Source of the DNA: Woeseiaceae bacterium
Lineage (GTDB): Bacteria > Pseudomonadota > Gammaproteobacteria > Steroidobacterales > Woeseiaceae
Assembly: GCA_021773115.1 (NCBI GenBank)
Contig: JAJFKS010000034.1
Coordinates: forward strand, 1 to 64,000
Direction: 5' to 3'
DNA length: 64,000 nucleotides
The notes beneath the pieces were generated by a model. It did no database searches, was not told where the DNA came from, and was given only the letters and a program-made list of their open reading frames with translations. The position numbers and the translations under genes are program-made. Positions 30,599 to 61,607 of the stretch are shown here, piece by piece. Position 1 is the stretch's first letter. Each line of letters opens with the position of its first letter.

Positions 30599-30631
30599 TG
30601 TATATATACATGCGTATTGCATATATGTACA
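30599..30631 (+). promoter_or_regulatory. Fuc-block operator-like motif, site A (in the fossil locus)
   Basis: TGTATATATACATGCGTATTGCATATATGTACA. Confidence 0.55.
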
Positions 30632-30723
30632 GACAGCGATTTTTCGTTTCAGTATCGATCGGCAAGTTTCTGACCACAACCGTGGCCGGCAGGCAGGGCA
30701 AGGTCATCATCCTCATCGATTGA
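30625..30723 (+). pseudogene. Fossil of a GHL15-like hydrolase gene (paralogue of 37871-39028)
   Basis: MYRQRFFVSVSIGKFLTTTVAGRQGKVIILID* versus MYRLRCLGVAVVGIFLTTTGSAEEPG...AEAGRQGKVVILKAF. Confidence 0.75.
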
Positions 30724-31987: not shown

Positions 31988-31997
31988 GTTGAGTCAT

Positions 31998-37811: not shown

Positions 37812-37844
37812 AATTATCGACGACGTGGGATATTAAGCTATACT

Positions 37845-37877
37845 TGCATATATACAGGTAGAGTGCACATATGTACA
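37845..37877 (+). promoter_or_regulatory. Fuc-block operator-like motif, site B (divergent promoter GH29 / GHL15-like)
   Basis: TGCATATATACAGGTAGAGTGCACATATGTACA; overlaps the start codon of the 37871 gene. Confidence 0.55.
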
Positions 37878-39028: not shown

Positions 39029-39102
39029 AGATGCAAGCTGATGGGAATAAGTCTTTCATATTTTTCAAGAAAATATTACTAAGGATTTTTCACCTAAACA
39101 CT

Positions 39103-44665: not shown

Positions 44666-45513
44666 TATTTGTCCAGCGCGACGACAGTTTGACTTTGGGT
44701 GCCTAAACCATCGATTCCCAGCTTAATGTTGTCCCCGACTGCCAGGTAAACAGGCGGCTTCTGTCCCAGACCCACGCCGGGCGGTGTACCGGACGAGATG
44801 ACATCGCCGGGTTGCAGACTCATGAACTGACTCAGGTAGCTCACAATCACTGCCGGGCCGAAAATCATCGTCTTGGTATTGCCGTCCTGATAACGATGTC
44901 CGTTTACTTCGAGCCACATCCCAAGGTTCTGCGGATCTTTGACTTCATCCCGCGTGACCAGCCATGGCCCAATGGGTCCAAACGTGTCGCAACCTTTGCC
45001 CTTGTCCCACTGACTGCCTTTCTCGAGTTGAAACAGTCGTTCGGATACGTCGTTGCAGACGCAGTAACCCGCAATGTGATTGCCGGCTTCTTCCTCAGAA
45101 ACGTAGGATGCATGCTTACCAATGACAATCGCAAGTTCAACCTCCCAGTCTAGCTTTTCGCTATTGCGCGGTTGAATGATGTCGTCATCCGGGCCACAGA
45201 TCGAACTGGTTGCCTTGGTGAATACTTCAGGTTCAGAAGGGACTGGCATACCCGACTCAGCCGCGTGGTCCGAATAGTTGAGTCCGATACAAAGGAACTT
45301 GCCAACGTTTCCTGCGCAGGCGCCCAGACGCACATCTTCGTCGACGAGCGGCAGATAGTTCGTATCCAGTCGACGCAGTGTCGCGAGTGCCTCGTCAGAT
45401 ATCGCGCTTCCGTCGATGTCGTCAACGTGTTGTGCCAGGCAGCGAATGTTTCCATCATTGTCCATTAGTCCGGGCTTCTCTTGTCCAGCCGGGCCGTATC
45501 GAAGTAGTTTCAT
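44665..45513 (-). CDS. Fumarylacetoacetate-hydrolase family; likely 2,4-diketo-3-deoxy-L-fuconate hydrolase
   Basis: FLCIGLNYSDHAAESGMPVPSEPEVFTKATSSICGPDDDIIQP, LDWEVELAIVIGK, VISSGTPPGVGLG; ATGA overlap with the lldD-like gene. Confidence 0.85.
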   Translation of the reverse strand: MKLLRYGPAGQEKPGLMDNDGNIRCLAQHVDDIDGSAISDEALATLRRLDTNYLPLVDEDVRLGACAGNVGKFLCIGLNYSDHAAESGMPVPSEPEVFTKATSSICGPDDDIIQPRNSEKLDWEVELAIVIGKHASYVSEEEAGNHIAGYCVCNDVSERLFQLEKGSQWDKGKGCDTFGPIGPWLVTRDEVKDPQNLGMWLEVNGHRYQDGNTKTMIFGPAVIVSYLSQFMSLQPGDVISSGTPPGVGLGQKPPVYLAVGDNIKLGIDGLGTQSQTVVALDK

Positions 45514-45526
45514 GATTTAGTCCAGT

Positions 45527-46300
45527 TTAGTTATTCAAAGTGACAAAACCGCCATCGATCGGGAAGTTTGAGCCCGTCACAAAAGCCGCTTCATCAGAAC
45601 AGAGGTAGGCAACCATTGCAGCAATTTCCTCTGACGTTCCCATGCGACCGATGGGCTGAGTCTTCGAGAGTTTGTCAAACATCTCGTCACGGTTGTCCGG
45701 ATAATTTTCTTCGAGATACCTGTCGACAAAGGGTGTGTGAACGCGACCCGGCGCAACGCAGTTGCAACGAATGCCGTAGTCCACATAGTCCTTCGCAACT
45801 GAATAGGTCATTGTCAGCACTGCGCCCTTAGTGGTTGAGTAGGCAAAACGATCGGCAATTCCAACGGACGATGCGACAGACGCCATATTGAGAATCGCAC
45901 CGCGGCGTCGATCCTTCATTGCGGGAACGACAGCGGCCAACATGTTGTAAACACCCTTCACATTGACCGAAATCAGACGGTCAAAATCAGCCTCGCTGGT
46001 GTTTTCGAGATTGCCGACATGAGCAATTCCGGCATTGTTCACCAAAACGTCGATGTCCGACGTTGCCAGGATGCCGCTGACTATTTCCCTAACCCCGCCG
46101 TGGTCGGCCACGTCGCAGGCGAAGGCGACCGCTGTGCCGCCGGATTCCTTTATTTCACTTGCGACAGATTCTGCTGACTCGAGGTTAAGGTCAAAAATCA
46201 GCACATGAGCGCCTTCGCTGGCAAGGCGCAGAGAAATGCTCTTGCCTATGCCGCTGCCGCCACCCGTCACCAGCGCTGTCTTTTTTTCAAATCGATTCAT
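45527..46300 (-). CDS. SDR dehydrogenase; likely 2-keto-3-deoxy-L-fuconate dehydrogenase
   Basis: ALVTGGGSGIGKSISLRLASEGA, NNAGIAHVG, YSTTKGAVLTMT; position in a fucose pathway cluster. Confidence 0.85.
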   Translation of the reverse strand: MNRFEKKTALVTGGGSGIGKSISLRLASEGAHVLIFDLNLESAESVASEIKESGGTAVAFACDVADHGGVREIVSGILATSDIDVLVNNAGIAHVGNLENTSEADFDRLISVNVKGVYNMLAAVVPAMKDRRRGAILNMASVASSVGIADRFAYSTTKGAVLTMTYSVAKDYVDYGIRCNCVAPGRVHTPFVDRYLEENYPDNRDEMFDKLSKTQPIGRMGTSEEIAAMVAYLCSDEAAFVTGSNFPIDGGFVTLNN

Positions 46301-46316
46301 TTGTTGTCTTCTTTAT

Positions 46317-47150
46317 TCACTGCTTAAGGTTGTAGAAATCGACCGCATTGCGACCAAAAATATCGGCTTGTTCCTGCTCCGACAGTACCTCGAATCGTGC
46401 TGTTGAAGCATCGTGCCACCCCTGGTAGTCACCGGCTAGATTGAGGACCGGCCAGTCGCTGCCCCAAATCAGCCGTTTCGAACCAAATGTCTCCAACAAG
46501 TGATCGAGATACGGCATCACGTCGTCGTAGGTCTGTTTGTCGCCGGCTTCGGTAATTAGACCCGAGATTTTGCAATAGGCCGACGTCTGACTTGCGATGG
46601 CGGAAATACGGTCGGCCCAGGGTTGCCATTCGCCCGATGCAATATCGGGCTTGGCACCGTGATCGATTACGACGCGCAGTTGCGGATGACGGTTCAGGCA
46701 ATTCAGCAAGTACGGGAGATGCACGGTTCGAACTAAAGCATCGAAACATATGTCATGAGCGGGCAGGGCGTCCAGAACGGTGCCGAGTCCCGGGTCGTCG
46801 ATCCAGGCAGTATTTTCGATGTCCTGAATCATCGGGCGAATTCCAACGAACTTCGAATGTTCAGCGAATTCCTGCAGTGTTTCAATGGCGTTGGTCGGTG
46901 AGTCCATGTCAATCCAACCTACGACTCCGGCGACTCGTGCACTGTGTTCGGCAATGGCTAGCAAGTACCGCGTCTCAGCAACACTGGCGGCGGCTTGTAC
47001 CAATACTGTCTGATCAATGCCCGCTTGATCCAAAAGAGGCGACAAGTCCTCCGGCGTGAAGTCTCTATACAGCGATCGCAGGTCCGGCGTCAGCCAACCA
47101 TAGTCGTCGCGCTGAATAGACCAATAGTGTTGATGACCGTCGATTCGCAC
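46317..47150 (-). CDS. Amidohydrolase-2 family; likely L-fucono-lactonase
   Basis: MRIDGHQHYWSIQRDDYGWLTPDLRSLYRDFTPEDL; VIDHGAKPDIASGEWQPW; RLIWGSDWPVLNLAG. Confidence 0.85.
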   Translation of the reverse strand: MRIDGHQHYWSIQRDDYGWLTPDLRSLYRDFTPEDLSPLLDQAGIDQTVLVQAAASVAETRYLLAIAEHSARVAGVVGWIDMDSPTNAIETLQEFAEHSKFVGIRPMIQDIENTAWIDDPGLGTVLDALPAHDICFDALVRTVHLPYLLNCLNRHPQLRVVIDHGAKPDIASGEWQPWADRISAIASQTSAYCKISGLITEAGDKQTYDDVMPYLDHLLETFGSKRLIWGSDWPVLNLAGDYQGWHDASTARFEVLSEQEQADIFGRNAVDFYNLKQ

Positions 47151-47155
47151 AGGCG

Positions 47156-47359
47156 TTACTTTGCTGTGCCATTAACAGTAACTGGCATCGGCGATAAAAA
47201 GCCGCGCCGCACTTTCGCGTACCCAGCCAGGCGCAAAATTTCGTTTGCTTGCGCTTCTGAAACGGCGTGGTAGAGGTTGCCCAGGGAGGCACAACCAAAG
47301 CCCGGCGTATCGATGCCAAGGCCAGTATTGCCAATACGCCGTTTATCTATCACAGCCAT
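47156..47359 (-). pseudogene. Aldo/keto reductase (fucose dehydrogenase-like), internally deleted and truncated
   Basis: MAVIDKRRIGNTGLGIDTPGFGCASLGNLYHAVSEAQANEIL//RLAGYAKVRRGFLSPMPVTVNGTAK*, compared with intact 55968-57008. Confidence 0.85.
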
Positions 47360-47372
47360 TTACCGAACCCAA

Positions 47373-48701
47373 TTACGTTCCGACTGCCTTCGTTTTGTTG
47401 CCAAGGCGCGATTGCCATGCTGCGCCATCCGGGTATCTGAAATGCTCGAGTGACTCCGCACGCATCTTCACGCTGAAGCCCGGGGCGGTGGGGGCCATGT
47501 ATGCGCCATTACGAATTCGGCACGGTTCTTCGAAATGTTCGTGCAAATGATCGACATACTCGATCACGCGCTCGCCGATGCGTGCGGAAATCTGCACGAA
47601 GTCGATCATCGACATGTGTTGGACATACTCGCATAAACCAACACCGCCTGCATGAGGGCAAACCGGTTTGCCGAATTTGGCTGCAAGCATATACACCGTG
47701 AGCGCCTCGTTCAGTCCTGCTAACCGGCAGGCATCAACCTGGACAATGTCGATGGCGTCATTGGCGATGAACTGTTTGAACAGGATACGGTTCTGACAGT
47801 GCTCGCCGGTCGCGACCTGAATTTCGCCGATATGATCGCGGATTTTTTTGTGGCCAAAGACGTCGTCGGGGCTCGTTGGTTCCTCTATAAACCAGGGCTT
47901 GAACTCGACCAGATTTTGCATCCAGTCAATCGCTTGGTTGACTTCCCACGCTTGATTGGCGTCGACCATTAACCTGACGTCATCGCCAATTGTTTCACGT
48001 GCGATTCGGCAGCGTCGAACATCATCGTCAACGCTTTCGCCGACTTTCAACTTCAGGTGGGTGAAGCCGTTTGCGACGGCTTTGGCGCAGAGTGCTTTTA
48101 GTTTCTTGTCGTTATATCCCAACCAGCCGGCAGACGTGGTATAGGCGGGATATCCGTTTCGCTCAAGATGCTCGATCCGTTCATCGCGTGTTGCCGCGTT
48201 TCGGCGCACTATTTCAAGTGCCTCTTCTTTTGTCAGAGCGTCTTCGATGTATCTGAAGTCAAGACAGCTGACAAACTGCTCTGGCGGCATGTCCGAAAGT
48301 AAGCGCCATACCGGCTTGCTTTCCGAGCGTGCCCACATGTCCCAGACGGCATTGACAATACCGCCGGCCGCCATGTGAATTACGCCTTTCTCGGGCCCCA
48401 GCCAGCGCAACTGGCTATCAGAACGCATTGCAGCATAGAACTCACCGATATTCTCTTTGATGTCGTCGAGATCTTTACCTATCACGAGGTGCTGCATGCT
48501 CTCCACGGCCTGGCAGCAGATTTCATTGCCCCTGCCAATCGTGAAAATCAGGCTAAATCCCTGATTTCCTCGCTCGGTTCTGATCGCGATGTACGCGGCG
48601 GAATAGTCGGGATCCTTGTTGGTTGCGTCGGACCCGTCCAGTTCCTCGGAGGTCGGAAATCGCACATCCAGGGCAGTCAATTTGATGATCTTGTTAGGCA
48701 A
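47373..48701 (-). CDS. Enolase-superfamily L-fuconate dehydratase, copy 1
   Basis: DVRFPTSEELDGSDATNKDPDYSAAYIAIRTERGNQGFSLIFTIGRGNEICC ... VDANQAWEVNQAIDWM ... CPHAGGVGLCEYVQHMSMID; TTG start by alignment to copy 2. Confidence 0.9.
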   Translation of the reverse strand: MPNKIIKLTALDVRFPTSEELDGSDATNKDPDYSAAYIAIRTERGNQGFSLIFTIGRGNEICCQAVESMQHLVIGKDLDDIKENIGEFYAAMRSDSQLRWLGPEKGVIHMAAGGIVNAVWDMWARSESKPVWRLLSDMPPEQFVSCLDFRYIEDALTKEEALEIVRRNAATRDERIEHLERNGYPAYTTSAGWLGYNDKKLKALCAKAVANGFTHLKLKVGESVDDDVRRCRIARETIGDDVRLMVDANQAWEVNQAIDWMQNLVEFKPWFIEEPTSPDDVFGHKKIRDHIGEIQVATGEHCQNRILFKQFIANDAIDIVQVDACRLAGLNEALTVYMLAAKFGKPVCPHAGGVGLCEYVQHMSMIDFVQISARIGERVIEYVDHLHEHFEEPCRIRNGAYMAPTAPGFSVKMRAESLEHFRYPDGAAWQSRLGNKTKAVGT

Positions 48702-48717
48702 TTTTTTACTCGTTATG

Positions 48718-48750
48718 ACTCCATATATGAAACAGTATTGTATAAATGCA
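48718..48750 (-). promoter_or_regulatory. Fuc-block operator-like motif, site C
   Basis: TGCATTTATACAATACTGTTTCATATATGGAGT on minus strand; 19-bp unit spacing; 17 bp upstream of the copy-1 dehydratase start. Confidence 0.55.
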
Positions 48751-48935
48751 ATTCTGTCAATCATAACCCGGACATCGCCCAGTATGGCGCGCACCTGTGG
48801 TACGCGGTACTCCACCGGAAATTGGGGCCGCCTGTGTCGAAATTCTCGTGTTGCACCAATGAAAGAACATATTGACCAGTGCAGTCTAAACCGGCAGTCT
48901 GCGCCATTGACGTCAACGAGTTCAGAGGGGCAGAC

Positions 48936-49730
48936 ATGGCTGAAACAGACAAAAAGTCACCGGGAACGCGGCGCAAAAAGGAATATTCGGCTCCGGCGCT
49001 GGAAAAAGGCCTGGATATTATCGAGGCCCTGGCCAGGGACTCCGACGGGCTGTCGTCCAAGGAGATCTCAGCGCGCTTGCGCCGGCCGATGGGTCAGCTA
49101 TTTCGTATGCTGGTCGTCCTGCAACAACGCGGTTACGTAACCTATAGCGCAAATTCGGAGCGCTATGAGCTGACCCTGAAGCTGTTCGAGCTATCCCACC
49201 AGTTGGCGCCGGTGAGACGGTTGACGCTAGCGGCTGCGCCCCTTATGAAACGCCTCGCGCAGGACATCAAGCAGTCTTGTCATCTGGTTGTCTACTATTC
49301 TGGAAAGGGTCATATTGTTGTCCAGCAGGATTCGCCGTCGACGCGCGTCCTGAGCGTTCGGCTGGGCGCCGAAGCGCCTTTGATCGACACCTGTTCGGGA
49401 CATGTGCTGTTGGCGTTTGTGGAAGAAGAAGAGCGACGAGTGATGCTCCGCAGCATACCCGCGCATCATCGCAAGCCTGCCAAATCGGCGCTCAATGAAA
49501 TAATAGGCCGAATTAACAAGGATGGATTCGAGCTCATCGCGAGCGCCCAAATACAGGGTGTGCAGGATATAGGTTACCCCGTGTACGACCACTCCGGGCA
49601 GATAAGCGCCGCCCTGGTTGTGCCATTCCTCTCGTATCTCGATGGGTCGCATCCTGTAAAGATCGAAGCTGCGCAGGGCATCATCGCAACAACAGCCGCC
49701 GATATCTCGAGTCGCCTGGGATACAGATAG
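48936..49730 (+). CDS. IclR-family transcriptional regulator
   Basis: EKGLDIIEALARDSDGLSSKEISARLRRPMGQLFRMLVVLQQRGYVTY HTH and C-terminal IclR domain (LIDTCSGHVLLAFVEEEE, DIGYPVYDHSGQISAALVVPF). Confidence 0.9.
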   Translation: MAETDKKSPGTRRKKEYSAPALEKGLDIIEALARDSDGLSSKEISARLRRPMGQLFRMLVVLQQRGYVTYSANSERYELTLKLFELSHQLAPVRRLTLAAAPLMKRLAQDIKQSCHLVVYYSGKGHIVVQQDSPSTRVLSVRLGAEAPLIDTCSGHVLLAFVEEEERRVMLRSIPAHHRKPAKSALNEIIGRINKDGFELIASAQIQGVQDIGYPVYDHSGQISAALVVPFLSYLDGSHPVKIEAAQGIIATTAADISSRLGYR

Positions 49731-49803
49731 CCGCCAGACCCGCGCATTAACCAGCATTTCCTGGTTGACCGACGATAGGCTCAAGTGAGGGCCCCTCACC
49801 GAG

Positions 49804-49836
49804 TGCATATCTACCTGTTGTTTGCATATATGAATC
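49804..49836 (+). promoter_or_regulatory. Fuc-block operator-like motif, site D
   Basis: TGCATATCTACCTGTTGTTTGCATATATGAATC. Confidence 0.55.
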
Positions 49837-49860
49837 ATATGTGAGAGCCTCCACCGAAAC

Positions 49861-49893
49861 TGTGTATATGCAGGTTGATTGCATTTATACATC
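49861..49893 (+). promoter_or_regulatory. Fuc-block operator-like motif, site E
   Basis: TGTGTATATGCAGGTTGATTGCATTTATACATC; starts 57 bp after site D. Confidence 0.55.
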
Positions 49894-49931
49894 AAGAGCT
49901 TCAAGCACTATAGAAATCGGGGGTCCTGCCA

Positions 49932-52688
49932 ATGAACAATCGGATACAGAAAAGCACTTTCTGTGAATTATTCAGCATCTTGTCACTGCTCACAATCGCC
50001 GGGGCGCCCGCAATGGCGCAAGAGGAGATTGAAGAGGTTGTCGTCACGGGTATTCGCAGCAGTCTCGAGCAGGCAGTAAAGATAAAGCGAGAATCCTCAA
50101 CCATTGTGGACGCGATCTCCGCTGAAGATGTTGGCAAGTTTCCGGACGAAAACGTAGCCGAATCCTTACAGCGCGTTACTGGAGTCCAGATTACACGGCT
50201 CCGGGGGGAAGGTCGGACGGTAAACATCCGCGGTCTGCCTTCGGCTTTTGGGCGCGTCCAATTGAACGGGCGAAGCCTGCCGTCGGCTCTGAATACTGTG
50301 AACTCCGATCCCAGTCGAAATTTTGACTTTACCGCCCTACCGTCTGAATTTGTTCGAAGCTTGGAAGTTCATAAATCGCCTACGGCCGACCTGCAGGAAG
50401 GGGGTCTGTCCGGAACCATTATTATTCGTACTCCGCGGCCATTCGATTACAACGATCGGCGCTTGTCCGGGTCTGTGCAGGGAGCATGGGAATCTAACTC
50501 GGACCAAACAGCACCACGTTTGTCCGGTATATATTCAGACATATTTGCCGACGGTAAGTGGGGTATTACACTTGGTGCAGCATATTCGGAGCGTAAGCCA
50601 GAAACTCACCAACTGGACCTGAGAGGGTACAACGATACCCGTACAGAAGATGTTGGGACTACAACCTCGGGCGGACCGCTCGACTTCAACGGAAATGGAA
50701 TCATCGAGCCGGGTTTGCTGGTGGAGATACCGGATCTTGTGTTTCTGAATATCTACACCGAGACGCGCAAGCGCTCGAGCGCCTTTGCCGCTTTCCAGGC
50801 CCGCCCAACAGACAGTCTTGAATTTACGGTAGATGCGTACTATACCGAACTGGATATTGAAGCATCGCGCTATGAGAATCTATACATACCTCGTTTGGCA
50901 TTGGGACCGATCGTACAAGAAGGCATTGTCACCCAGACATTCAACGGCGATACGCGTGCCGTTAGGTTCGAATCCGACAATACCGATCTTCGTGGCGGCA
51001 GCCGATTCGAAGATCGATTCGGGGAAACGCTATCGATTGCGGCGGGCCTGCGGTTCGACTCAGGTCCTTGGTCAGTTCTCGGGGAAATTGCAATCTCAGA
51101 ATCGGATCAGATTCGAGACAATCTGAATATCGCTACCATAGGCCTCGGGCGTGTCGCCATTGACGCGACCGTCGATTCAGAGATGATTAGCGTCATCCAC
51201 GGCGCTGGTTTTGAGGAGGCTCGTCTCGATCCGCAGAGCTTTCGGATTGCGAGTCTGAACGGTGAATATAAACGGAAATCCCAAGATGACCAGAATGAAA
51301 TCAGCTTGGATTTTGAGCGTACTTTAGTTGCGGGCCCGATCTCCAACATAAAGTTCGGGGCCCGTGCAACCGCCCGCGAACAATTCCAGGACAATGGGAG
51401 ACTTGTTGTACCTGGACCTGCGTTTGCGACACTCGTTGGTGGTCTGCCAGAAGGCCCGCTGCCTGGATCAATTTCGGCGGCGCCTTTCATGCAGCTAATT
51501 CAACCGGGGAATGGAAGTTTTCTCGAGGCCTATAGCGGTCAGGCGGTATTCCCGCAAAAATGGTTGGGGTCCGACACAGCAGGGTTCCTGAGTACAGTCA
51601 CAGACGCCGAACTCATCGCCGCTGGAAATTTCACAAACAGTCCATCCGGAATCATCGATGTCGAAGAGGACGTCTTGGCCGCTTACGTGATGGCCGACTT
51701 CGGTTCGAGTGATGGGCTGATCTCCGGTAATTTTGGTGTAAGAATTGTTGAAACGGAACAGACGTCCCGCGGATCCATACCTGACTTGACAGGAATCACG
51801 TTTCAGCCCGAAGCCGGAGAAATAACAACGATACCAATCTCCGGTGACACCCAAATCAAGCGCACGTACACCGACGTGTTGCCTAGTGTTAACCTAAGAA
51901 TCAACTTGAGAGACGATTTGGTCCTGCGCTTCACCGCGAATCGAACCATGTCGAGACCTCCACTGGCCGACGTGTCACCGTCAGCAAGCGCCAACGGTAC
52001 GGCTGCGACCATTTCACAAAAGAATCCTTTTCTGGATCCGTTCAGGTCAAACAATTTCGATGTCGCGGCCGAGTGGTACCTGAGCGACAACGGCCTCTTG
52101 TCGGCGACCTATTTTTACAAAGACGTGGTGTCTTTGATCACCCTCGAGACGGTATCTCGCGCGCTGCCGGTTACCGTAATCTTCGGTGACGGCAGCACCC
52201 TGGTCGAGCCGCTGGACTTTCAAATCACGGAGCCAGTGAACGGTGATGGCGTAATAGTTGAGGGACTGGAAATTGGCTACCAACAGTCGTTTAGCTTTCT
52301 GCCTGGCATCTGGGAAAACACAGGCGTGATCGGTAACTATACCTTTATTCAAAACTCGAACGAGGAATTGCTGACCGGGTCCTCGAAACATAATTACAAC
52401 ATTGGCGCCTACTATGAATCCGAACGCCTTGCAGTGCGGCTATCTTATACTTGGCGTGACGATTTTCTCGTTTCGTCGACCGCTGGATTTGGCGACGGAA
52501 TCCGCGCTCGGGCTCGTGGCACGCTTGACGGCAACTTTGTTTACAACATCAACGACAATTTGTCTGTGGTCTTTGAAGCGGTCAATATCTTGGACGATGC
52601 AGATAGGCAGCAATTCCTGACAGGGCTGCCCAACGAATACACTGATACTGGACGGCGGCTTTTGCTGGGAGCACGCCTCTCTTTCTAG
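49932..52688 (+). CDS. TonB-dependent receptor, fucan block copy 1
   Basis: EEVVVTGIRSSLEQAVKIKRESSTIVDAISAEDVGKFPDENVAESLQRVTGVQITRLRGEGRTVNIRGLPSAFGRVQLNGR; barrel ending GRRLLLGARLSF. Confidence 0.95.
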   Translation: MNNRIQKSTFCELFSILSLLTIAGAPAMAQEEIEEVVVTGIRSSLEQAVKIKRESSTIVDAISAEDVGKFPDENVAESLQRVTGVQITRLRGEGRTVNIRGLPSAFGRVQLNGRSLPSALNTVNSDPSRNFDFTALPSEFVRSLEVHKSPTADLQEGGLSGTIIIRTPRPFDYNDRRLSGSVQGAWESNSDQTAPRLSGIYSDIFADGKWGITLGAAYSERKPETHQLDLRGYNDTRTEDVGTTTSGGPLDFNGNGIIEPGLLVEIPDLVFLNIYTETRKRSSAFAAFQARPTDSLEFTVDAYYTELDIEASRYENLYIPRLALGPIVQEGIVTQTFNGDTRAVRFESDNTDLRGGSRFEDRFGETLSIAAGLRFDSGPWSVLGEIAISESDQIRDNLNIATIGLGRVAIDATVDSEMISVIHGAGFEEARLDPQSFRIASLNGEYKRKSQDDQNEISLDFERTLVAGPISNIKFGARATAREQFQDNGRLVVPGPAFATLVGGLPEGPLPGSISAAPFMQLIQPGNGSFLEAYSGQAVFPQKWLGSDTAGFLSTVTDAELIAAGNFTNSPSGIIDVEEDVLAAYVMADFGSSDGLISGNFGVRIVETEQTSRGSIPDLTGITFQPEAGEITTIPISGDTQIKRTYTDVLPSVNLRINLRDDLVLRFTANRTMSRPPLADVSPSASANGTAATISQKNPFLDPFRSNNFDVAAEWYLSDNGLLSATYFYKDVVSLITLETVSRALPVTVIFGDGSTLVEPLDFQITEPVNGDGVIVEGLEIGYQQSFSFLPGIWENTGVIGNYTFIQNSNEELLTGSSKHNYNIGAYYESERLAVRLSYTWRDDFLVSSTAGFGDGIRARARGTLDGNFVYNINDNLSVVFEAVNILDDADRQQFLTGLPNEYTDTGRRLLLGARLSF

Positions 52689-52897
52689 ATGTTTTATGTG
52701 AGTTGAATGATTTTTGGGTCTGCACTAGCGCAACTGAGATTGGACCATAAGTGTTGCGTCGCATCCGGTCCAAGCAGATTCGCAACAAGTGCTGTCGATT
52801 AGGGAGTTATCAAAAGGATGGATTACCGGATAGACATGGCCATTAAGTGGAGGCGACGCGCTCTGTGGCACCAGACGCACGATTGGTGCCGCGACCG

Positions 52898-54325
52898 ATG
52901 AGTAGCCCGCGCAAGCTTGTAACTGACTTGTGCCAGATCCTTCTCGTGCTCGTGCCGATGGCGATAATCGTATTTACGGCTGCGGGCTGTTCCGAGAAAA
53001 GCGAGCAGGCGAAAAATGCCGAAGCCAATACAGCTGACGTGGCCCGGAAAGAGTTGGATACTGAGTCGAAGGGCCCACCGAATATTATTGTGATCTTGGC
53101 CGATGACCTCGGATACGGCGATATTTCGGTAACCGGCGGCCGGGTTAAGACCCCTAACATCGAGCGCCTCGCGGCAGAAGGAATGCGGTTGACGGATTTT
53201 CATACCAGTGGTGTGGTTTGTAGCCCGACGCGCGCTGGATTACTTACGGGCCGTTACCAGCAACGCGCCGGCATTCCTGGCGTGATAGTAGCGGATCCAT
53301 CGGGGCTAACGCATGAAAATGGTCTGCAGGACCGCGAAATCACGGTCGCCGAATTGTTGCAGAAAGAAGCCTATGACACCGCAATTTTCGGCAAGTGGCA
53401 CCTTGGCTACGATCCCCTTTACAGTCCCTTGAATAATGGGTTTGATAAGTATGCAGGCTTCGTTGCCGGCAATATCGACTATTTTTCCCACATTGATCAG
53501 TCGGGCAAGCACGACTGGTGGCGAGATCGTGAATTGAACGTCGAGCAAGGCTATGCGACGAGCCTAATTAACGACTATGCCGTCAAATATATAGAGCAGT
53601 CGAGGAGTACGCCATTCTTCCTGTACGTGTCTCATGCCGCACCGCACTATCCGTACCAAGGCCCCGACGATTCGGCCGAGCGGCAGGCGGGCGCGCAATT
53701 TGAGGTATATAGCGCCGACGGCGACGTTCAGGCTACTTATCGCGAAATGGTACTCGAGATCGACCGAGGTATCGGTGACATTATGCGGGCGCTCGAACGC
53801 ACTGGTCAGGACAAAAATACACTGATTCTGTTTTTTTCTGATAACGGCGCGAACGAGTATGGCAGTAACGCGCCCTATCGTGGTTACAAAACAACGGTGT
53901 GGGAAGGTGGACACCGAGTGCCCTTCATCGCCCGGTGGCCATCAAAAATTCCTGCCGACACGGTACGGAGCCAACTGTCGTCATCCCTCGACGTCATGCC
54001 GACAATTATGGATATTGTCGGCATTCCGATTGTTGATGCGCCTGCTTTGGACGGAAGCAGCATCGCGCCTCTGCTTTACGGGGAGCGCGGTAACTCAAAT
54101 AGGCAGCTGTACTGGAACGGAGTCGCGATGCGAGACGGCGATTGGAAGCTGGTAATTGCAGATGGTAAGCCAAAGCTGTTCGATCTGAGCTCAGATCCCG
54201 GCGAATTAAACGATCTGTCAACAAGCAATCCTCAAATGGTAACGGAAATGCTAGCTGCAATTCGGGCCTGGCAAGCGGACATTTCAACAGATATGACCCA
54301 GCAGCCAGTGCCTCTACCACAATGA
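52898..54325 (+). CDS. Sulfatase (probable lipoprotein)
   Basis: FTAAGCSEKSEQ lipobox; PNIIVILADDLGYGDISVTGG; VCSPTRAGLLTGRY; FGKWHLGY; FFSDNGANE. Confidence 0.92.
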   Translation: MSSPRKLVTDLCQILLVLVPMAIIVFTAAGCSEKSEQAKNAEANTADVARKELDTESKGPPNIIVILADDLGYGDISVTGGRVKTPNIERLAAEGMRLTDFHTSGVVCSPTRAGLLTGRYQQRAGIPGVIVADPSGLTHENGLQDREITVAELLQKEAYDTAIFGKWHLGYDPLYSPLNNGFDKYAGFVAGNIDYFSHIDQSGKHDWWRDRELNVEQGYATSLINDYAVKYIEQSRSTPFFLYVSHAAPHYPYQGPDDSAERQAGAQFEVYSADGDVQATYREMVLEIDRGIGDIMRALERTGQDKNTLILFFSDNGANEYGSNAPYRGYKTTVWEGGHRVPFIARWPSKIPADTVRSQLSSSLDVMPTIMDIVGIPIVDAPALDGSSIAPLLYGERGNSNRQLYWNGVAMRDGDWKLVIADGKPKLFDLSSDPGELNDLSTSNPQMVTEMLAAIRAWQADISTDMTQQPVPLPQ

Positions 54326-54364
54326 CTAACCTTTAGCGGCACGGCCATATTCGGAGACAAAGCA

Positions 54365-55876
54365 ATGAAACGGGTCCAACACTATCTTCTCATACTCGGG
54401 CTAATGGCAACCGCCAGCTGTGCGAAAAGTCCTGATGTCGCGGAAGAGGTGGCAATTGCGGCGACCGATCAGAGTGCGTCGAAGGCCTCACCTAATATTG
54501 TATTGATTCTTGCAGATGACCTTGGGTCTGGAGACATCTCTGCGTATAACAAACACAGTCGAATCCCGACTCCCCACCTTGACGAACTGGCAAGCGAGGG
54601 TGTTCGGTTTTCAGCGGCCCATTCGTCGTCTGCAGTTTGTACGCCGAGTCGCTACGGAATATTGACCGGTGAATACTCGTGGCGCACATGGCTCAAGAAA
54701 GGCGTCTTGGACGGCTACGACAGAAGCCTCATTTCCAGGGACACTCCTACTATCGCGTCCTTTCTCAAGAGCAACGGGTACCATACGGCGGCTGTGGGTA
54801 AATGGCACCTCGGGTTCGGCACCGACGGTGAGAAAGAATTCACACGCGCGCCGGATATTCGACCGACCACACTCGGCTTCGATTACTTTTACGGCATTTC
54901 TGCTTCCCTTGATATTCCGCCCTATGCGTTCATAGAAAACGGAGTATTCGATGAGCAGCCGAGCGGATGGGTGGCGCAGCGGCAAGGCGGAAAAGAAATA
55001 GACGACTTCTGGTACTGGCGGGAAGGCCCGATTGCGCCGTCATTCGATTTTCATACAGCCGATAGAGTCCTTACAGACAAGGCCATACAGATAATCGACG
55101 CGGAGTCGTCCAACGACAGACCATTTTTTCTGTACTTTGCGCTGACCGCTCCGCATACACCACTGGTGCCTCGAGAGGAGTTTGCAGGGGTGAGCAACGC
55201 CGGTATTTACGGGGACTTTGTTGCGCAAACCGATGCCTCGATTGGGCGCGTAATCGAGGCATTAAATACAAGCGGCCAACTTGATAACACGATTGTGATT
55301 GTCACCAGTGATAACGGGGCGGTCGCATACACCTATCTACAAGATCACGGGCATTCTACAAATGGACCTTGGCGGGGCATGAAATCTCAACTTTTCGAGG
55401 GCGGGCACCGAATCCCGCTGGTCGTTTCCTGGCCCGGTAAGTTTGGCCCCGGAGTTTCAGACAGAATGGTGTCGCTTGTAGACCTTTTTGCGACCTTCGC
55501 CGACCTGCTCGACACCGATCTCGAAAATGCCGCTCCCGACAGCTATAGCTTTGCCGACGTCCTCACCGACGCAGCAGACAGCGTCGCAAAGCCTCGAGAT
55601 TTCATTGTCGCTCACTCGTTGTACGGAACCTTCGGAATTGAGAAGGATGATTGGAAGCTGATAGAAGACGACGAAAGCGGTGGTTTTGGCGATACGGAAA
55701 TTCCCGAAGGAGGCGTGTTCTGGAGTGGCGAACCGTTGGTCCACTCACGCGACCAGTGGCAACTCTACAATCTACGCATCGATCCGGAGGAATCGGAAAA
55801 TGTATTGCGAGAGAATCCTGAGGTCGTCGATGAGTTGCACGCGCTGCTGCAGGATATCAAACAGGGTACACGGTAA
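54365..55876 (+). CDS. Arylsulfatase-type sulfatase (probable lipoprotein)
   Basis: MATASCAKS lipobox; PNIVLILADDLGSGDISAYN; VCTPSRYGILTGEYSWRTWLKKGVLDGYDRSLI; VGKWHLGFG; VTSDNGA. Confidence 0.92.
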   Translation: MKRVQHYLLILGLMATASCAKSPDVAEEVAIAATDQSASKASPNIVLILADDLGSGDISAYNKHSRIPTPHLDELASEGVRFSAAHSSSAVCTPSRYGILTGEYSWRTWLKKGVLDGYDRSLISRDTPTIASFLKSNGYHTAAVGKWHLGFGTDGEKEFTRAPDIRPTTLGFDYFYGISASLDIPPYAFIENGVFDEQPSGWVAQRQGGKEIDDFWYWREGPIAPSFDFHTADRVLTDKAIQIIDAESSNDRPFFLYFALTAPHTPLVPREEFAGVSNAGIYGDFVAQTDASIGRVIEALNTSGQLDNTIVIVTSDNGAVAYTYLQDHGHSTNGPWRGMKSQLFEGGHRIPLVVSWPGKFGPGVSDRMVSLVDLFATFADLLDTDLENAAPDSYSFADVLTDAADSVAKPRDFIVAHSLYGTFGIEKDDWKLIEDDESGGFGDTEIPEGGVFWSGEPLVHSRDQWQLYNLRIDPEESENVLRENPEVVDELHALLQDIKQGTR

Positions 55877-55894
55877 CGAGGACCTTATCTTTTG

Positions 55895-55968
55895 GTCAGT
55901 GTGAGCCGGCCGTAGTCGTCACGCAGCAAAGACCAGATAAGCTGATGACTATCAATACGCCCGCGCAT
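55895..55968 (-). pseudogene. N-terminal stub of a second amidohydrolase (lactonase) gene
   Basis: Minus strand MRGRIDSHQLIWSLLRDDYGRLTLT versus MRIDGHQHYWSIQRDDYGWLT of the intact gene; same position relative to the aldo/keto reductase. Confidence 0.75.
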
Positions 55969-57008
55969 TACTCACTAGTGCTGTCGGTCGACAACGGAGT
56001 TGGCGCATCACCACGAATCAATTCGTGTTTTAGCAACGCGCCCCAGAAGTCGTCCGGAATTTCGGTCGCGAACAGATCCAGGGTCTGATCAATACGACGG
56101 ACGTTGCCAATGCCCGGAATAACAGAGGCGACAGCAGGGTGAGCGAGCGGGAACTGAAGGGCGGCAGCCGCCAACGGAATGCCGAATTCGGCGCAATGAC
56201 TTTCTATAGCAGCCACTTTCCTGACGACGTCGTCAGGAGCGGGGCCGTAGTCGTAATTCCACGGTCCCATTCCGCTAACGCCTGTCGCCAAAATGCCGGA
56301 GTTGTAGGCCCCGCCGATGATGATAGAGCAGTTTCTCTCAACGCACTTGGGAAGAAAGGTATCGAGCGCTTGCTGCTCGAGTAGTGTGTAGCGGCCGGCC
56401 AGCAGGAAACAGTCCCAGTCACCGCACTTCAGCGCTTGCTCGCACACTTCGTATTCGTTGACGCCAAGTCCGATCGCACTCACCCGGCCGCTCTGGCGCA
56501 ATTCGTTCATCGCTCGGTAGCCACCGTCCATGGCAATAGGAAACAGTAGATCGTTGTCATCACCATGAGTGACACGGCCGACATCGTGCATGAACAGGAT
56601 ATCTATTCGATCCAGACCCAATCGCTGCAGGCTGTCTTCGAATGAGCGCATGACCCCGTCGTAGCTGTAGTCGTACTCTATGTCGAACGGCATGGGCGAA
56701 AGAAAGCCGTGGCGCTCTGTGGCATAACCGGCAGGGCGTAGCAGTCGACCGACTTTGGTCGACAAAATGTAGTCTTTCCTGCTTGATGATCTTAATGCGT
56801 CGCCGACTCGGCGCTCGCTGAGTCCCTGACCATAATGAGGTGCTGTATCAAAATACCGAAAGCCATTCGACCAGGCGGTTGTCAGAATGTCTGTAGCGTC
56901 TTCATCAGAAACTGCGTGATAGAGGTTTCCGAGAGAAGCGCAGCCGAATCCCAGCGCGTCGATCGCTAGTTCGGTATTCCCAATCCGACTTTTTTGAAAT
57001 CTGCTCAT
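55968..57008 (-). CDS. Aldo/keto reductase; likely L-fucose dehydrogenase
   Basis: SRIGNTELAIDALGFGCASLGNLYHAVSDEDATDILTTAWSNGFRYFDTAPHYGQGLSERRVGDAL; LDRIDILFMHDVG. Confidence 0.88.
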   Translation of the reverse strand: MSRFQKSRIGNTELAIDALGFGCASLGNLYHAVSDEDATDILTTAWSNGFRYFDTAPHYGQGLSERRVGDALRSSSRKDYILSTKVGRLLRPAGYATERHGFLSPMPFDIEYDYSYDGVMRSFEDSLQRLGLDRIDILFMHDVGRVTHGDDNDLLFPIAMDGGYRAMNELRQSGRVSAIGLGVNEYEVCEQALKCGDWDCFLLAGRYTLLEQQALDTFLPKCVERNCSIIIGGAYNSGILATGVSGMGPWNYDYGPAPDDVVRKVAAIESHCAEFGIPLAAAALQFPLAHPAVASVIPGIGNVRRIDQTLDLFATEIPDDFWGALLKHELIRGDAPTPLSTDSTSE

Positions 57009-57026
57009 GCGTAGGGCCAGGTGTAG

Positions 57027-58343
57027 TCAAGCGATTTTCTTATCAATTCGCGAATGCCATTCGGCACCGTTCGGATACTCGAATCGCTTTAGCGAGTCTT
57101 CATGCATTTTGACACTAAAACCCGGTAAACGCGGAACCTGGTACGCGCCATTTCTCATTTCGCAGGGATCTTCGAAATGCTCGTGCAAGTGATCTACATA
57201 CTCAATAACTCGCTCACCAATGTCAGCGGATATCTGAACATAGTCAATTATCGACATATGTTGTACGTATTCACACAGACCAACACCACCTGCGTGTGGG
57301 CAGACTGGCTTGCCGTATTTCGCAGCGAGCATGTAAACCGTGAGGATTTCATTCAGTCCACCTAATCGGCACGCATCGATTTGAACGATGTCAATTGCAT
57401 CATTCGCGATAAATTGCTTGAACAAAATTCGGTTCTGGCAATGCTCGCCGGTAGCGACTTTTATCTCACCGATGTTTTCGCGAATCGTTCTGTGACCAAA
57501 AACGTCGTCAGGACTTGTTGGTTCTTCGATAAACCAGGGCTTAAAGGGGATCAGGTTCTGCATCCAGTCGATTGCCTGATCAACTTCCCATGCCTGGTTC
57601 GCATCAATCATCAGTTTAACGTTATTACCGATAGTTTCTCTGGCGATCCTGCAGCGTCGAATGTCGTCCTCGACAGACTCACCGACCTTGAGTTTGATAT
57701 GTGTGAAGCCGTCGTCCATGGCCTCGCGGCAAAGGCGTTCGAGCTTTTCATCGCTATAGCCCAACCAACCTGCTGACGTTGTATAGGCGGGGTAGCCACT
57801 CTCTTCCAGTTGTTGAATTCTTTGCGGTTTGGTCGCCTGGTTTCCTTCAACAATTGCCAAAGCTTCCTCGCGTGTTAGCGCGTCGTCGACATAGCGAAAG
57901 TCCAGGCAATTTACGAATTGTTCCGGCGTCATGTCGGCAAGCAATCGCCAGACGGGCTTGTCTACCGAGCGTGCCCACATATCCCAGACGGCGTTCACGA
58001 CGCCGCCGGCCGCCATGTGCATTACGCCTTTTTCGGGGCCAAGCCAACGAAGCTGGCTATCCGAACGGAACTCGTTATAGAACTTGCCGATATCCGCAGT
58101 AATGTCTTCCAGATCGACGCCGATTACCAAGTGCCGCATAGCCTTCACGGCCTCGCAGCAAATATCATTACCCCGGCCAATGGTGAAAATCAGGCTATAG
58201 CCACGGTTGCCTTGCTCAGTTTCGAGAACAATGTACGCAGCGGAGTAATCCGGGTCCTTATTCGTTGCATCTGATCCGTCCAGATGTTCCGAAGTTGGAA
58301 AGCGAATATCCATCGTGGACAGGCTAATGATCTTATTGCTCAA
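57027..58343 (-). CDS. Enolase-superfamily L-fuconate dehydratase, copy 2
   Basis: Strongly similar along its whole length to copy 1 (47373-48701); IDANQAWEVDQAIDWM. Confidence 0.9.
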   Translation of the reverse strand: MSNKIISLSTMDIRFPTSEHLDGSDATNKDPDYSAAYIVLETEQGNRGYSLIFTIGRGNDICCEAVKAMRHLVIGVDLEDITADIGKFYNEFRSDSQLRWLGPEKGVMHMAAGGVVNAVWDMWARSVDKPVWRLLADMTPEQFVNCLDFRYVDDALTREEALAIVEGNQATKPQRIQQLEESGYPAYTTSAGWLGYSDEKLERLCREAMDDGFTHIKLKVGESVEDDIRRCRIARETIGNNVKLMIDANQAWEVDQAIDWMQNLIPFKPWFIEEPTSPDDVFGHRTIRENIGEIKVATGEHCQNRILFKQFIANDAIDIVQIDACRLGGLNEILTVYMLAAKYGKPVCPHAGGVGLCEYVQHMSIIDYVQISADIGERVIEYVDHLHEHFEDPCEMRNGAYQVPRLPGFSVKMHEDSLKRFEYPNGAEWHSRIDKKIA

Positions 58344-58360
58344 TGGTTGATCTCATAGAA

Positions 58361-58393
58361 TGTATATATGCAACCGTATTGCACAAATACATG
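58361..58393 (+). promoter_or_regulatory. Fuc-block operator-like motif, site F
   Basis: TGTATATATGCAACCGTATTGCACAAATACATG; 18 bp upstream of the copy-2 dehydratase start. Confidence 0.55.
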
Positions 58394-58499
58394 AGAGTCA
58401 ACTATTATGAGGATTGCGAGCTTGAGAATTCGTTTTAATCGTTGATTGTTTCCAGCAATACGCCGATTGATACTGTGCAATCTTCAGAGTCCATAAGAA

Positions 58500-58720
58500 G
58501 ACAATCACAAACGGACCAAGCACGAGCGAACGGGAAAAAAACGGCGGAAAGCGCAAGGAGTACTCAGGGCGAGCTCCGGAAAAAGGGCTTGAGATTATGG
58601 AATCGCTGGCGAGCGAGCCGAAGTGCCTAGGCTCTGCGGAGGTTTGCAAGCGCCTTGGCCGACCAATGTGGGGTAGCTGTTTCGCGGCTCGGCACAATCG
58701 GCACAAGAAGGGCCGCTGGA
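58500..58720 (+). pseudogene. IclR-family regulator, decayed second copy
   Basis: RKEYSGRAPEKGLEIMESLASEPKCLGSAEVCKRLGRPMWGSCFA versus KEYSAPALEKGLDIIEALARDSDGLSSKEISARLRRPMGQLFRM of the intact gene; no full ORF. Confidence 0.8.
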
Positions 58721-58777
58721 GACCACTAAACTACCTGTTTACCGCTGCTGACAGCAGGGTCCACGGCACCTCAGTCG

Positions 58778-58810
58778 TGCATTTATACAGTCCGGTTGCA
58801 AGTATGAATC
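58778..58810 (+). promoter_or_regulatory. Fuc-block operator-like motif, site G
   Basis: TGCATTTATACAGTCCGGTTGCAAGTATGAATC. Confidence 0.5.
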
Positions 58811-58834
58811 CCTTGTGAGATAGTCGAGAAAAGC

Positions 58835-58867
58835 TGCACATGTACAGCAGGCCTGTATATATGATTA
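58835..58867 (+). promoter_or_regulatory. Fuc-block operator-like motif, site H
   Basis: TGCACATGTACAGCAGGCCTGTATATATGATTA; starts 57 bp after site G. Confidence 0.5.
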
Positions 58868-58883
58868 CGCTAGGGGGCAGGAA

Positions 58884-61607
58884 ATGAAAGACCGACATCT
58901 TACACGGGGAACGAAAACCCTTTTCGCAACAATGATTGCGCTTTTCACGGCATCCAATATCGCCATAGCTCAGGACGACCCTGGGCGCGAAGCTTCCATT
59001 GCACTCGATGAAGTCGTTGTCACGGGCGTGCGCAACAGCATTGTGAGTGCGGCCCAAATCAAGCGGGACTCGGACACCATCGAGGAAGCGATTACAGCCA
59101 TCGATATGGGCCAATTTATGGACGACAGCATCGCGCAGGCCTTGCAGCGTGTTCCGGGAGTACAGATCGAGGTGGACGACACCGGCACAGACGGCGACCG
59201 GGTTTCTATCCGCGGTATGGGTCCCAGCTTCGTCAATGCCACGATCAATAACCGCATCTTGCTGTCTCCCGGCACGCAGGGATCGAACCTCCGTCGCATG
59301 AACTTCAACGTGTTTCCACCCAATGTACTGACCGGTGTGCGCGTTACCAAGATGCAGACGGCAAGTCGGCCTGAGGCTGGCATGGCGGGTCTGGTGAATT
59401 TGCAGACGCTCCGGCCTCTCGACCACAAGTACCCCAAGAATCAGAACTTCTTCGGATCGGTAACCCTGCAAGGCGACTATCAGGACGTATCCGACGAAGA
59501 CAGTTTCCGTGCGAGCGGGATACTTGGCGTGCGTAACCAGGCCGGTAACTTTGGTGCCTTTATTGCGGTGGCTGGCGGCGATACCCAGGCTGCGCGCGAC
59601 CAATTGAGTGCCAGGCCATTGCAGAGAGACATCCAAATTGACAACGACGGCGACGGCGTTGCGGACGAAACGATGGAGGATGTGTTCGTTCCCCAGGTCA
59701 TGAACTTCCAACCGAAACGCGAAGAGCGCAAACGCACGGCAGTTTCGGCCGGAATCCAATTCCAGCCGACGGATGAACTGAACATCGTTATTGACGGGAC
59801 GTTTACGGAGTTTGACAGCGATGCAACCCAGGACCGCACGCAACTGGTATTTGGCAATGCCTGGTTCAATAGACAGGTGTGGGACGCTGATGGTATTGAA
59901 ATCGACGAGAACAACACCGTGAGGTATGCGGATTTCAGCCAGGTAACCGGTCCCAGGGCGGTTCAACAGCGTCTTTCGCCACTGCAATTTCGCAACGTGA
60001 CCGAGAACCAGATCCTGGGCGCGAACGTGGACTGGCATCGGGGTCGTCTGAACGTCAATTTTGATGTTTATAGCAGCAGCGTTGACTACCTGCAGGACCT
60101 TCGATTCCCGATTTTCCGGCAAAACCTGGACACAGCGGCGATTATCTACGATGCGCGAAACACGGTACCGACAGTACAACTCGGGCCAGATTATATCGAT
60201 ACCTCCACCCAGTCGTTCTTCAATACGACTATCCGTGAGATCTATATGGAAGGGGATATCATCGGCGGGGCACTCGCTTTCGAATTCGACCTGGGCTGGA
60301 AGGCGTTCTCGACAATCCGATTCGGTTACAACCATTCCGAGGCGGATATTGATTTCAGTATTTACGGCAAACCCGCAGGGTTGCCCGCACCGGATTCAGA
60401 CGAGATGGTGGCTGCGGGCATCTCGGGCCAGCTGTGGCCGGGCAATTTCCTGGACGGACAGACTTCGCCAGGCGAGTGGTTTCTCACGGATTTTGAGGCC
60501 ATGGCCGCCATTGAACCCTGGTTCTTGCTAACCGGTAAACAGGAACTGGTGCTCGATCAGGAGAGTGGCTACCACGCTGACGAAAAACTGGATGCGTTCT
60601 ACGGCCAACTCGATTTTAGCGCGGACCTGCGAGGCACGCCGTTCACGGGCAACTTCGGAGTTCGTGCGGTCAGGACCGAAAACATCTCGTATGGCTCGAC
60701 ACGCAACGTCGACAACAGCTTCACGCCGACAATGACCCAATTCGATTATTGGGAATACCTGCCGAGCGTCAACTTAAGGATTGCGGCCAGTGATACATTC
60801 GATGTGCGCTTGGGTTACTCGAAGACGCTGACGCGACCGGAATACAAGGATACAGCGCCGGTCATCCGGATTATTCGTGAACCTGACATCGATCCGATAA
60901 CGGGAGATGTGATCGTCGGGCGTGCGACCGCGGGCAACCCCGAACTCGCTCCGATTACAGCGGATAACATTGACCTCACCGCTGGCTGGTACCCGGAGAA
61001 TGGCAGCAACATCGTTGCCAGCGTTTTTTACAAGAAAGTGGATGACTTCATTGTCTCGGATACCACGGAGGACGGTACGGTACCCGGTCAGGTAGGTCTC
61101 TTCGACATAACACAGCCGCTCAACTTCTCGGAGGGCACGGTCAGGGGTGCCGAATTCAGTTTTTACCTGCCGGGCGGTGTATTGCATTCGAGTCTCGAGA
61201 ACTTCGGAGTTCAGGGAAACTACACTTATATTGACGGCGAATTTGCCCAGGATGTCGGTGATGTCGGGGTCGGATTTCCGGGTAACTCAAAAAATAACTA
61301 CAATCTGACGGCGTTCTTTGAGACTCAGAAATTTACTGCACGCCTGGCCTATACCTACCGCGGCGGCTTCCTGCGAGACCTCGCCGGCACAAGTGCGCAG
61401 ACAGTTACAGCCCGCCACACAGGAGAGCAGGAAAATGTAACGGCAAACTTAAGGTACCGGGCGATGAAAAATCTGACGCTGAGCTTCAATGTGAACAACC
61501 TGACAGACGAAAATCGCCACGATTTTGTGGGTACCGAAAACACGTTCCTGGCGTACTTCTATCGCGGACGTACTTACGCATTAACGGCGACCTACAAGTT
61601 TCGGTGA
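58884..61607 (+). CDS. TonB-dependent receptor, fucan block copy 2
   Basis: DEVVVTGVRNSIVSAAQIKRDSDTIEEAITAIDMGQFMDDSIAQALQRVPGVQIEVDDTGTDGDRVSIRGMGPSFVNATINNR; barrel ending YALTATYKFR. Confidence 0.95.
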   Translation: MKDRHLTRGTKTLFATMIALFTASNIAIAQDDPGREASIALDEVVVTGVRNSIVSAAQIKRDSDTIEEAITAIDMGQFMDDSIAQALQRVPGVQIEVDDTGTDGDRVSIRGMGPSFVNATINNRILLSPGTQGSNLRRMNFNVFPPNVLTGVRVTKMQTASRPEAGMAGLVNLQTLRPLDHKYPKNQNFFGSVTLQGDYQDVSDEDSFRASGILGVRNQAGNFGAFIAVAGGDTQAARDQLSARPLQRDIQIDNDGDGVADETMEDVFVPQVMNFQPKREERKRTAVSAGIQFQPTDELNIVIDGTFTEFDSDATQDRTQLVFGNAWFNRQVWDADGIEIDENNTVRYADFSQVTGPRAVQQRLSPLQFRNVTENQILGANVDWHRGRLNVNFDVYSSSVDYLQDLRFPIFRQNLDTAAIIYDARNTVPTVQLGPDYIDTSTQSFFNTTIREIYMEGDIIGGALAFEFDLGWKAFSTIRFGYNHSEADIDFSIYGKPAGLPAPDSDEMVAAGISGQLWPGNFLDGQTSPGEWFLTDFEAMAAIEPWFLLTGKQELVLDQESGYHADEKLDAFYGQLDFSADLRGTPFTGNFGVRAVRTENISYGSTRNVDNSFTPTMTQFDYWEYLPSVNLRIAASDTFDVRLGYSKTLTRPEYKDTAPVIRIIREPDIDPITGDVIVGRATAGNPELAPITADNIDLTAGWYPENGSNIVASVFYKKVDDFIVSDTTEDGTVPGQVGLFDITQPLNFSEGTVRGAEFSFYLPGGVLHSSLENFGVQGNYTYIDGEFAQDVGDVGVGFPGNSKNNYNLTAFFETQKFTARLAYTYRGGFLRDLAGTSAQTVTARHTGEQENVTANLRYRAMKNLTLSFNVNNLTDENRHDFVGTENTFLAYFYRGRTYALTATYKFR

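Follow-up and report, generated by a model that had tools for sequence, protein, structure and literature searches.

Two adjacent modules, apparently of separate descent, share one predicted oxidative L-fucose pathway in a Woeseiaceae bacterium

We analysed a 64,000-nucleotide stretch of a Woeseiaceae genome (assembly GCA_021773115.1, contig JAJFKS010000034.1, positions 1 to 64,000; hereafter the window) in which the gene order lactonase, aldo/keto reductase (AKR), fuconate dehydratase and, divergently, IclR regulator and TonB-dependent receptor (TBDT) is present twice. A preliminary description of this DNA had read the arrangement as a duplicated fucose module whose copies then lost different genes, became mutually dependent and perhaps specialised for different fucans; the order and decay that it gave are correct. 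Judged from its genes, one oxidative L-fucose pathway is divided over the two operons, with the dehydratase redundant. Our best explanation, to which we assign a probability of roughly 0.58, is that two homologous but separately descended modules merged: an ancestral operon would have been broken by a second polysaccharide utilisation locus (PUL) module, and the redundant genes then lost. This explanation draws on the anatomy of the modules, their decay, the uniqueness of the AKR and the lactonase, the incongruence of the gene trees, and an operator shared by both modules and restricted to this locus. As part of the same explanation, and at the same confidence, the whole would be a fucoidan/fucan utilisation locus of a marine bacterium. 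As in proteobacterial TBDT-type fucan PULs, TIGR01782 TBDTs, GH29, GH95 and sulfatases lie within ~30 kb, clustered with the fucose catabolic operon, and the glycosidases identified belong mostly to fucosidase families.

Copy 1 (module 1) is a six-gene minus-strand operon of lldD, an FAA hydrolase (FAAH), an SDR, the lactonase, an AKR relic and the dehydratase dhd1 (43520-48698), facing plus-strand IclR1, TBDT1 and two sulfatases (Table 1). Copy 2 (module 2) has a minus-strand lactonase stub, AKR2 and the dehydratase dhd2 facing an IclR relic, TBDT2, a GH29 fucosidase and further sulfatases; the SDR, FAAH and lldD genes of copy 1 (43520-46300) have no counterpart there. The decay is reciprocal. 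Copy 1 keeps the lactonase and IclR, and its reductase is reduced to 67 codons that retain AKR2 residues 1-42 and 91-110; 48 codons are deleted in frame and the C-terminal ~235 residues are gone, which makes this relic a pseudogene. No AKR domain is matched by Pfam in these 67 aa with their two deletions. Copy 2 keeps an intact reductase, a lactonase stub of ~20 codons and an IclR relic spanning residues 23-71. None of the three relics is a chance match (E values in Table 1); for the IclR relic we relied on the protein-level match, the nucleotide alignment being forced and gap-ridden. A BLASTN comparison of the two copies, as the preliminary description had proposed, gave a single long match, the dehydratase (1361 bp, 71.6%); the remainder comprised 83 bp at the AKR relic, ~73 bp at the lactonase stub and, between the TBDTs, little more than a 161-bp patch at 65%.

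The host genome measures 4.41 Mb in 39 contigs and is 99.6% complete. Searched throughout, it has no second match to the lactonase, and AKR2 is single, the next best intact AKR match being 37% over 85 residues. Fuconate dehydratases number exactly two, dhd1 and dhd2; such a dehydratase occurs in 21 of 396 genomes of the order, and this genome is the only one with two. Since the AKR and the lactonase are each unique in the genome, a single pathway appears now to draw on both operons. The complete pathway is probably encoded only by the combination of both gene sets, which are probably under joint control. Mutual dependence, as originally proposed, is no more than likely: the adjacent AKR is decayed in the relative L048 and there is none beside the dehydratase in L044, so that its place can probably be taken by another aldose dehydrogenase. 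Replacement of the dehydrogenase step is documented in other fucose loci (PMC5507952). The L048 AKR next to the fuconate dehydratase (L048/L169, 9553-9874) carries an internal deletion; L048 and L044 are other gammaproteobacterial MAGs of the same taxonomic order, and in them this step was lost independently, by decay in the former and absence in the latter.

Both dehydratases match L-fuconate dehydratases of the enolase superfamily over their full length. Residues K217/K219, D247, E273, E300, D323 and H350 of dhd2, aligned with 1yey, are identical in dhd1; we take these to be the KxK motif, the D/E/E metal ligands and the His-Asp pair. Because the inspected catalytic positions are identical, the sequences give no sign of dehydratase specialisation, and the suggestion of dehydratases adapted to different fucans finds no support, the same monosaccharide acid being the expected substrate of both. 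TBDT1 and TBDT2 may plausibly carry different cargo. One might still suppose that dhd1 and dhd2 act on different sugar acids (e.g. L-fuconate versus L-galactonate, D-arabinonate or L-rhamnonate), the copies serving partly different pathways. Enzymes of this family are promiscuous, the best solved relatives of AKR2 are L-galactose dehydrogenases (9w6y/7smi, E ~1e-26 to 7e-27), and FAAH, with 428 bits to NF053535 (under the cut-off of 500), has a rhamnonate-pathway hydrolase as its best match; however, the full-length matches to solved L-fuconate dehydratases, the invariant catalytic positions and the predominance of fucosidase families leave this supposition very hard to credit, and AKR2 is a probable L-fucose 1-dehydrogenase. 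The putative lactonase scores 213 bits against the NCBIfam equivalog NF052480, its best match of all models and a full-length one, without reaching the cut-off of 400, and is thus lactonase-like by context rather than certified by a curated model. IclR1 has both the IclR helix-turn-helix (PF09339) and effector (PF01614) domains and scores 91 bits, below cut-off, against NF011671. With the lactonase, FAAH and IclR under NCBIfam cut-offs, their exact substrates rest on context.

Tandem position, common gene order and reciprocal relics are what a duplication in this lineage followed by reciprocal decay would leave behind, if dhd1 and the TBDTs then diverged fast. The trees, which the preliminary description had itself named as the refuting test, speak against such a recent event. 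First, of the genes that the modules have in common the dehydratases alone are closely related (78% amino acid identity), and dhd2 groups with the Lysobacterales metagenome-assembled genomes (MAGs) L041-L043 and the Halieaceae MAG L049 (support 99/98), leaving dhd1 outside. Sisterhood of dhd1 and dhd2 costs 20.8 log units and is rejected by the approximately unbiased (AU) test (p=0.023), as is a clade of dhd1, dhd2, L041, L042 and L043 (p=0.013). Second, the synonymous difference between dhd1 and dhd2 (pS 0.82) exceeds that between dhd2 and L041 (0.73) or L043 (0.68); dating the pair by Ks failed because synonymous sites are saturated, and synonymous divergence, another check proposed earlier, lends recent duplication no support. 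Third, the TBDTs separate more strongly than the dehydratases: their sisterhood is rejected (AU p=8.8e-5), both have better-scoring matches among other receptors than with each other, and the nearest relative of TBDT1 (49-50%) comes from the fucose locus of a different proteobacterial MAG, where a relative of sulfatase B and a GH29 adjoin it. There is also no close counterpart pair of sulfatases A and B beside TBDT2. Recent duplication is thus largely refuted by the AU tests and the saturated synonymous sites, and we consider it highly improbable. What survives of the preliminary description is that each copy retains a dehydratase and a TBDT and that decay was reciprocal; the TBDTs, ~30% identical members of one broad family, are not copies of each other, and a recent duplication as the origin of both modules is not supported.

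The undecayed single-copy form, for which a search had been suggested, exists in relatives: in each of L041, L043 and L049 a single operon comprises dehydratase-AKR-lactonase-SDR-FAAH(-lldD), accompanied by a divergent gene for an MFS permease. The MFS permease of our genome (contig positions 68569-69915, among sulfatases and ~10 kb from dhd2) is 91% identical to that of L041 and 80% to that of L049. Single-gene trees of the SDR and the lactonase being too weak to decide, we concatenated lactonase, SDR and FAAH, which fall inside the L041/L043/L049 clade (99/99); their exclusion is rejected (p=0.044, or p=0.036 with lldD added). For FAAH, lldD and AKR2 alike, the partner in the tree is the L043 gene (support ~90-92). 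The lactonase, SDR and FAAH genes adjoin dhd1 yet side with the intact operons, as do AKR2, dhd2 and the permease, so that the most economical reading is one chassis operon interrupted by a homologous module.

Several points weigh against this merger. In a class-wide search and a scan of the genome contigs, dhd2 remained the closest relative of dhd1, and hence no donor is identified. Support for the placement of the trunk genes is modest (p ~0.04), a somewhat higher evolutionary rate than that of dhd2 draws dhd1 outward in trees, and neither the AKR relic nor the lactonase stub is long enough to be placed. Nor can the modules be told apart by base composition (GC at third codon positions, GC3, is 63 for dhd1, 55 for dhd2 and 58-60 for the trunk). 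Finally, the operator positions and 57-bp spacing common to both modules indicate old common descent of the layout, which fits an old duplication too. An old tandem duplication of the whole module could have predated the split from the L041/L043/L049 lineages, making the copies out-paralogs of which the other lineages kept copy 2 only. It would account for the alike gene order, operator positions and spacing before both TBDTs, for dhd2 being the closest dhd1 relative found, and for the lactonase stub, expected at the junction of a tandem duplication that ended within the lactonase. Yet it requires that several lineages lost copy 1 in parallel, that the trunk genes of copy 1 either belonged to copy 2 or were homogenised by gene conversion, and that the TBDT of one copy was replaced; moreover, L046, of the same genus, has one dehydratase, which groups with neither dhd1 nor dhd2. 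With all these demands taken jointly we regard an old duplication as a possibility, but a doubtful one.

Comparison of the intergenic regions revealed a 31-bp dyad, TGTATATATGCAA-N5-TTGCATATATACA, common to both modules. It occurs eight times in the window against ~0.1 expected (2 matches in 20 shuffled windows). Several of these eight sites went into the scoring matrix, which makes their scores partly circular; the half-site pattern search is less so. This half-site pattern, rather than the full dyad model, was used genome-wide, and the half-site TGTATAWATGCAA with zero mismatch has 4 matches in 4.41 Mb, all within this locus. Elsewhere the dyad lies ~40-60 bp before the dehydratase in L046, L047, L049 and L050, and in tandem with 57-bp spacing before the L046 TBDT. 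It also precedes IclR in L164 and, in Paraglaciecola (L166), a relative of TBDT1. At score 16 there is none in ~750 kb of the L068-L105 loci or in any other dehydratase locus examined. The dyad co-occurs with IclR in L046, L047, L049, L050 and L164; L162 and L163 have IclR with no dyad at the score threshold. Since copy 2 lost its IclR and kept its operators, the single IclR1 probably controls both modules via these candidate dyads. Our literature searches found no paper describing this operator and none on Woeseiaceae fucose loci.

The operator is conserved before TBDTs with only ~30-38% protein identity (L046 8798-8885, L166 68-98), which suggests that the promoters were conserved while the receptors evolved fast or were swapped. 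Within the window, 30556-30680 matches the divergent GH29/GHL15 promoter (37802-37926) at 72% DNA identity and is a second, decayed copy without intact GH29/GHL15 genes; the decayed copy (30556-30715) has an additional short match inside GHL15 (38673-38708). A GH29-GHL15 fusion protein (31908-34595, GC 44%) is encoded near the separate GH29 and GHL15 genes (36189-39028), which diverge from the operator.

Under the merger explanation, the ancestral chassis would have united dehydratase-AKR-lactonase-SDR-FAAH-lldD in a single operon, accompanied by a divergent gene for an MFS permease, a form still intact in relatives. We infer an insertion event in which the second module (dhd1, IclR1, TBDT1, two sulfatases) entered between the chassis lactonase and AKR, with the AKR relic and lactonase stub at its flanks, after which each redundant gene would have been lost once. 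IclR as the binder and the substrates are likewise presumed: TBDT1 and TBDT2 would import sulfated fuco-oligosaccharides, the sulfatases and GH29/GH95 would free L-fucose, and the permease would take L-fucose in. AKR2 would then oxidise it, the lactonase open the lactone, and dhd1 and/or dhd2 dehydrate L-fuconate, with pyruvate produced via L-lactate by SDR, FAAH and LldD. The single intact IclR, acting on the shared dyad before dhd1, dhd2, TBDT1 and TBDT2, would keep the half-operons in step.

More tentatively, horizontally assembled PUL modules under one locus-private operator may have become an obligately bipartite pathway through reciprocal losses, both dehydratases being kept as first genes of co-induced operons. 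If so, reciprocal loss (constructive neutral interlocking), and not adaptive specialisation, would have fixed a natural operon merger. Under the merger explanation in general, the locus would offer a readable example of PUL rebuilding, in which a related module divides a catabolic chassis, redundant steps are lost singly and a shared operator coordinates the halves; the operator could be used for finding fucan loci in other Gammaproteobacteria.

Table 1. Genes, relics and candidate dyad operators of the two modules (window coordinates)
Feature	Coordinates	Strand	Evidence
Dyad operator	30599..30629	.	Score 27.7; within the decayed second copy of the promoter at 37.8 kb
Dyad operator between GH29 (36189-37811, -) and GHL15 (37871-39028, +)	37845..37875	.	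Score 22.2
lldD-like FMN-dependent L-lactate dehydrogenase	43520..44665	-	PF01070 1e-133; 89%/83% to L043/L041; final gene of chassis operon
FAA-hydrolase family 2,4-diketo-3-deoxy-fuconate/rhamnonate hydrolase (FAAH)	44665..45513	-	PF01557; sister to L043 (92/92)
SDR, 2-keto-3-deoxy-L-fuconate dehydrogenase-like	45527..46300	-	PF13561; 83/82/78% to L043/L041/L049
Putative L-fucono-1,5-lactonase, intact, sole genome copy	46317..47150	-	PF04909; PDB 4dlf group 3e-37
AKR relic (copy 1), 67 codons	47156..47359	-	tblastn to AKR2, E 2e-17
Fuconate dehydratase 1 (dhd1)	47373..48698	-	PDB 2hxt/1yey L-fuconate dehydratase 1e-164; outside dhd2 clade
Dyad operator before dhd1	48720..48750	.	Score 24.0
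IclR-family regulator (IclR1), intact, KdgR-like	48879..49730	+	PF01614/PF09339; 65% to L049 IclR
Dyad operator 1 before TBDT1	49804..49834	.	Score 21.4
Dyad operator 2 before TBDT1, 57 bp from operator 1	49861..49891	.	Score 33.9; exact half-site in genome search
TonB-dependent receptor 1 (TBDT1)	49932..52688	+	TIGR01782 643 bits; nearest G406/L148 at 49-50%, another fucose locus
Sulfatase A, module 1 cargo	52847..54325	+	Sulfatase motif CSPTR; tblastn relatives in locus
Sulfatase B, module 1 cargo	54365..55876	+	44-50% relative beside TBDT1 relative in L164/L066
Lactonase stub (copy 2), ~20 codons	~55900..55959	-	Matches lactonase residues 2-21, tblastn E 2e-8, 70%
Aldo/keto reductase 2 (AKR2), intact, sole close genome copy	55968..57008	-	PF00248 1e-45
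Fuconate dehydratase 2 (dhd2)	57027..58343	-	PDB 1yey/2hxt L-fuconate dehydratase 5e-171; clade with L041/42/43/49 (99/98)
Dyad operator before dhd2	58361..58391	.	Score 35.2
IclR relic (copy 2)	58522..58668	+	Matches IclR1 residues 23-71, tblastn E 6e-11
Dyad operator 1 before TBDT2	58778..58808	.	Score 23.7
Dyad operator 2 before TBDT2, 57 bp from operator 1	58835..58865	.	Score 14.5, weakest site
TonB-dependent receptor 2 (TBDT2)	58884..61607	+	TIGR01782 513 bits; 28-33% to TBDT1, not sisters
GH29 alpha-L-fucosidase, module 2 cargo	61691..63475	+	PF01120 2.5e-86

Two further features of the window lie apart from these modules. The sulfatase gene at 39019-40944 (GC 37% and GC3 28%, in a window of GC 53%) is likely a recent foreign arrival, and a 59-bp direct repeat, 81% identical, is found at 9951-10009 and 12689-12747, outside the fucose module.

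The pathway steps are those of the oxidative (non-phosphorylated) L-fucose pathway of Xanthomonas campestris, source of the L-fuconate dehydratase structures 2hxt/1yey (Yew et al. 2006, as cited in PMC5507952): dehydrogenase, lactonase, fuconate dehydratase, SDR and FAAH, with the dehydratases aligning over their full length. Unlike X. campestris, the present locus has two adjacent operons, two dehydratases, an extra lldD and an aldo/keto reductase as the predicted dehydrogenase. The fuc loci of Halomonas HL-48 and HL-93, for which FucR sites are predicted and non-orthologous replacement of pathway steps is documented (PMC5507952), resemble it in placing oxidative fucose/fuconate catabolism under a local regulator but differ in transporters and gene content; none of the Halomonas loci examined has a dyad of this kind at score 16. 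Closer are the operons of the Lysobacterales MAGs GMC10_bin_10 (L041) and bin10o (L043) and of the Halieaceae MAG (L049), which have the same genes at ~70-89% identity and the MFS permease, but with one dehydratase, no TBDT-sulfatase cargo inside, and the AKR and lactonase adjacent and intact. The Woeseiaceae MAG PL25b_bin.32 (L046/L159) shares the divergent arrangement of dehydratase and IclR-TBDT, with operators likewise placed, among them a dyad pair at 57-bp spacing ahead of the TBDT; it differs in having a single copy and more distant enzymes (73% identity for the dehydratase, 35% for the TBDT), with the SDR and FAAH on the other side.

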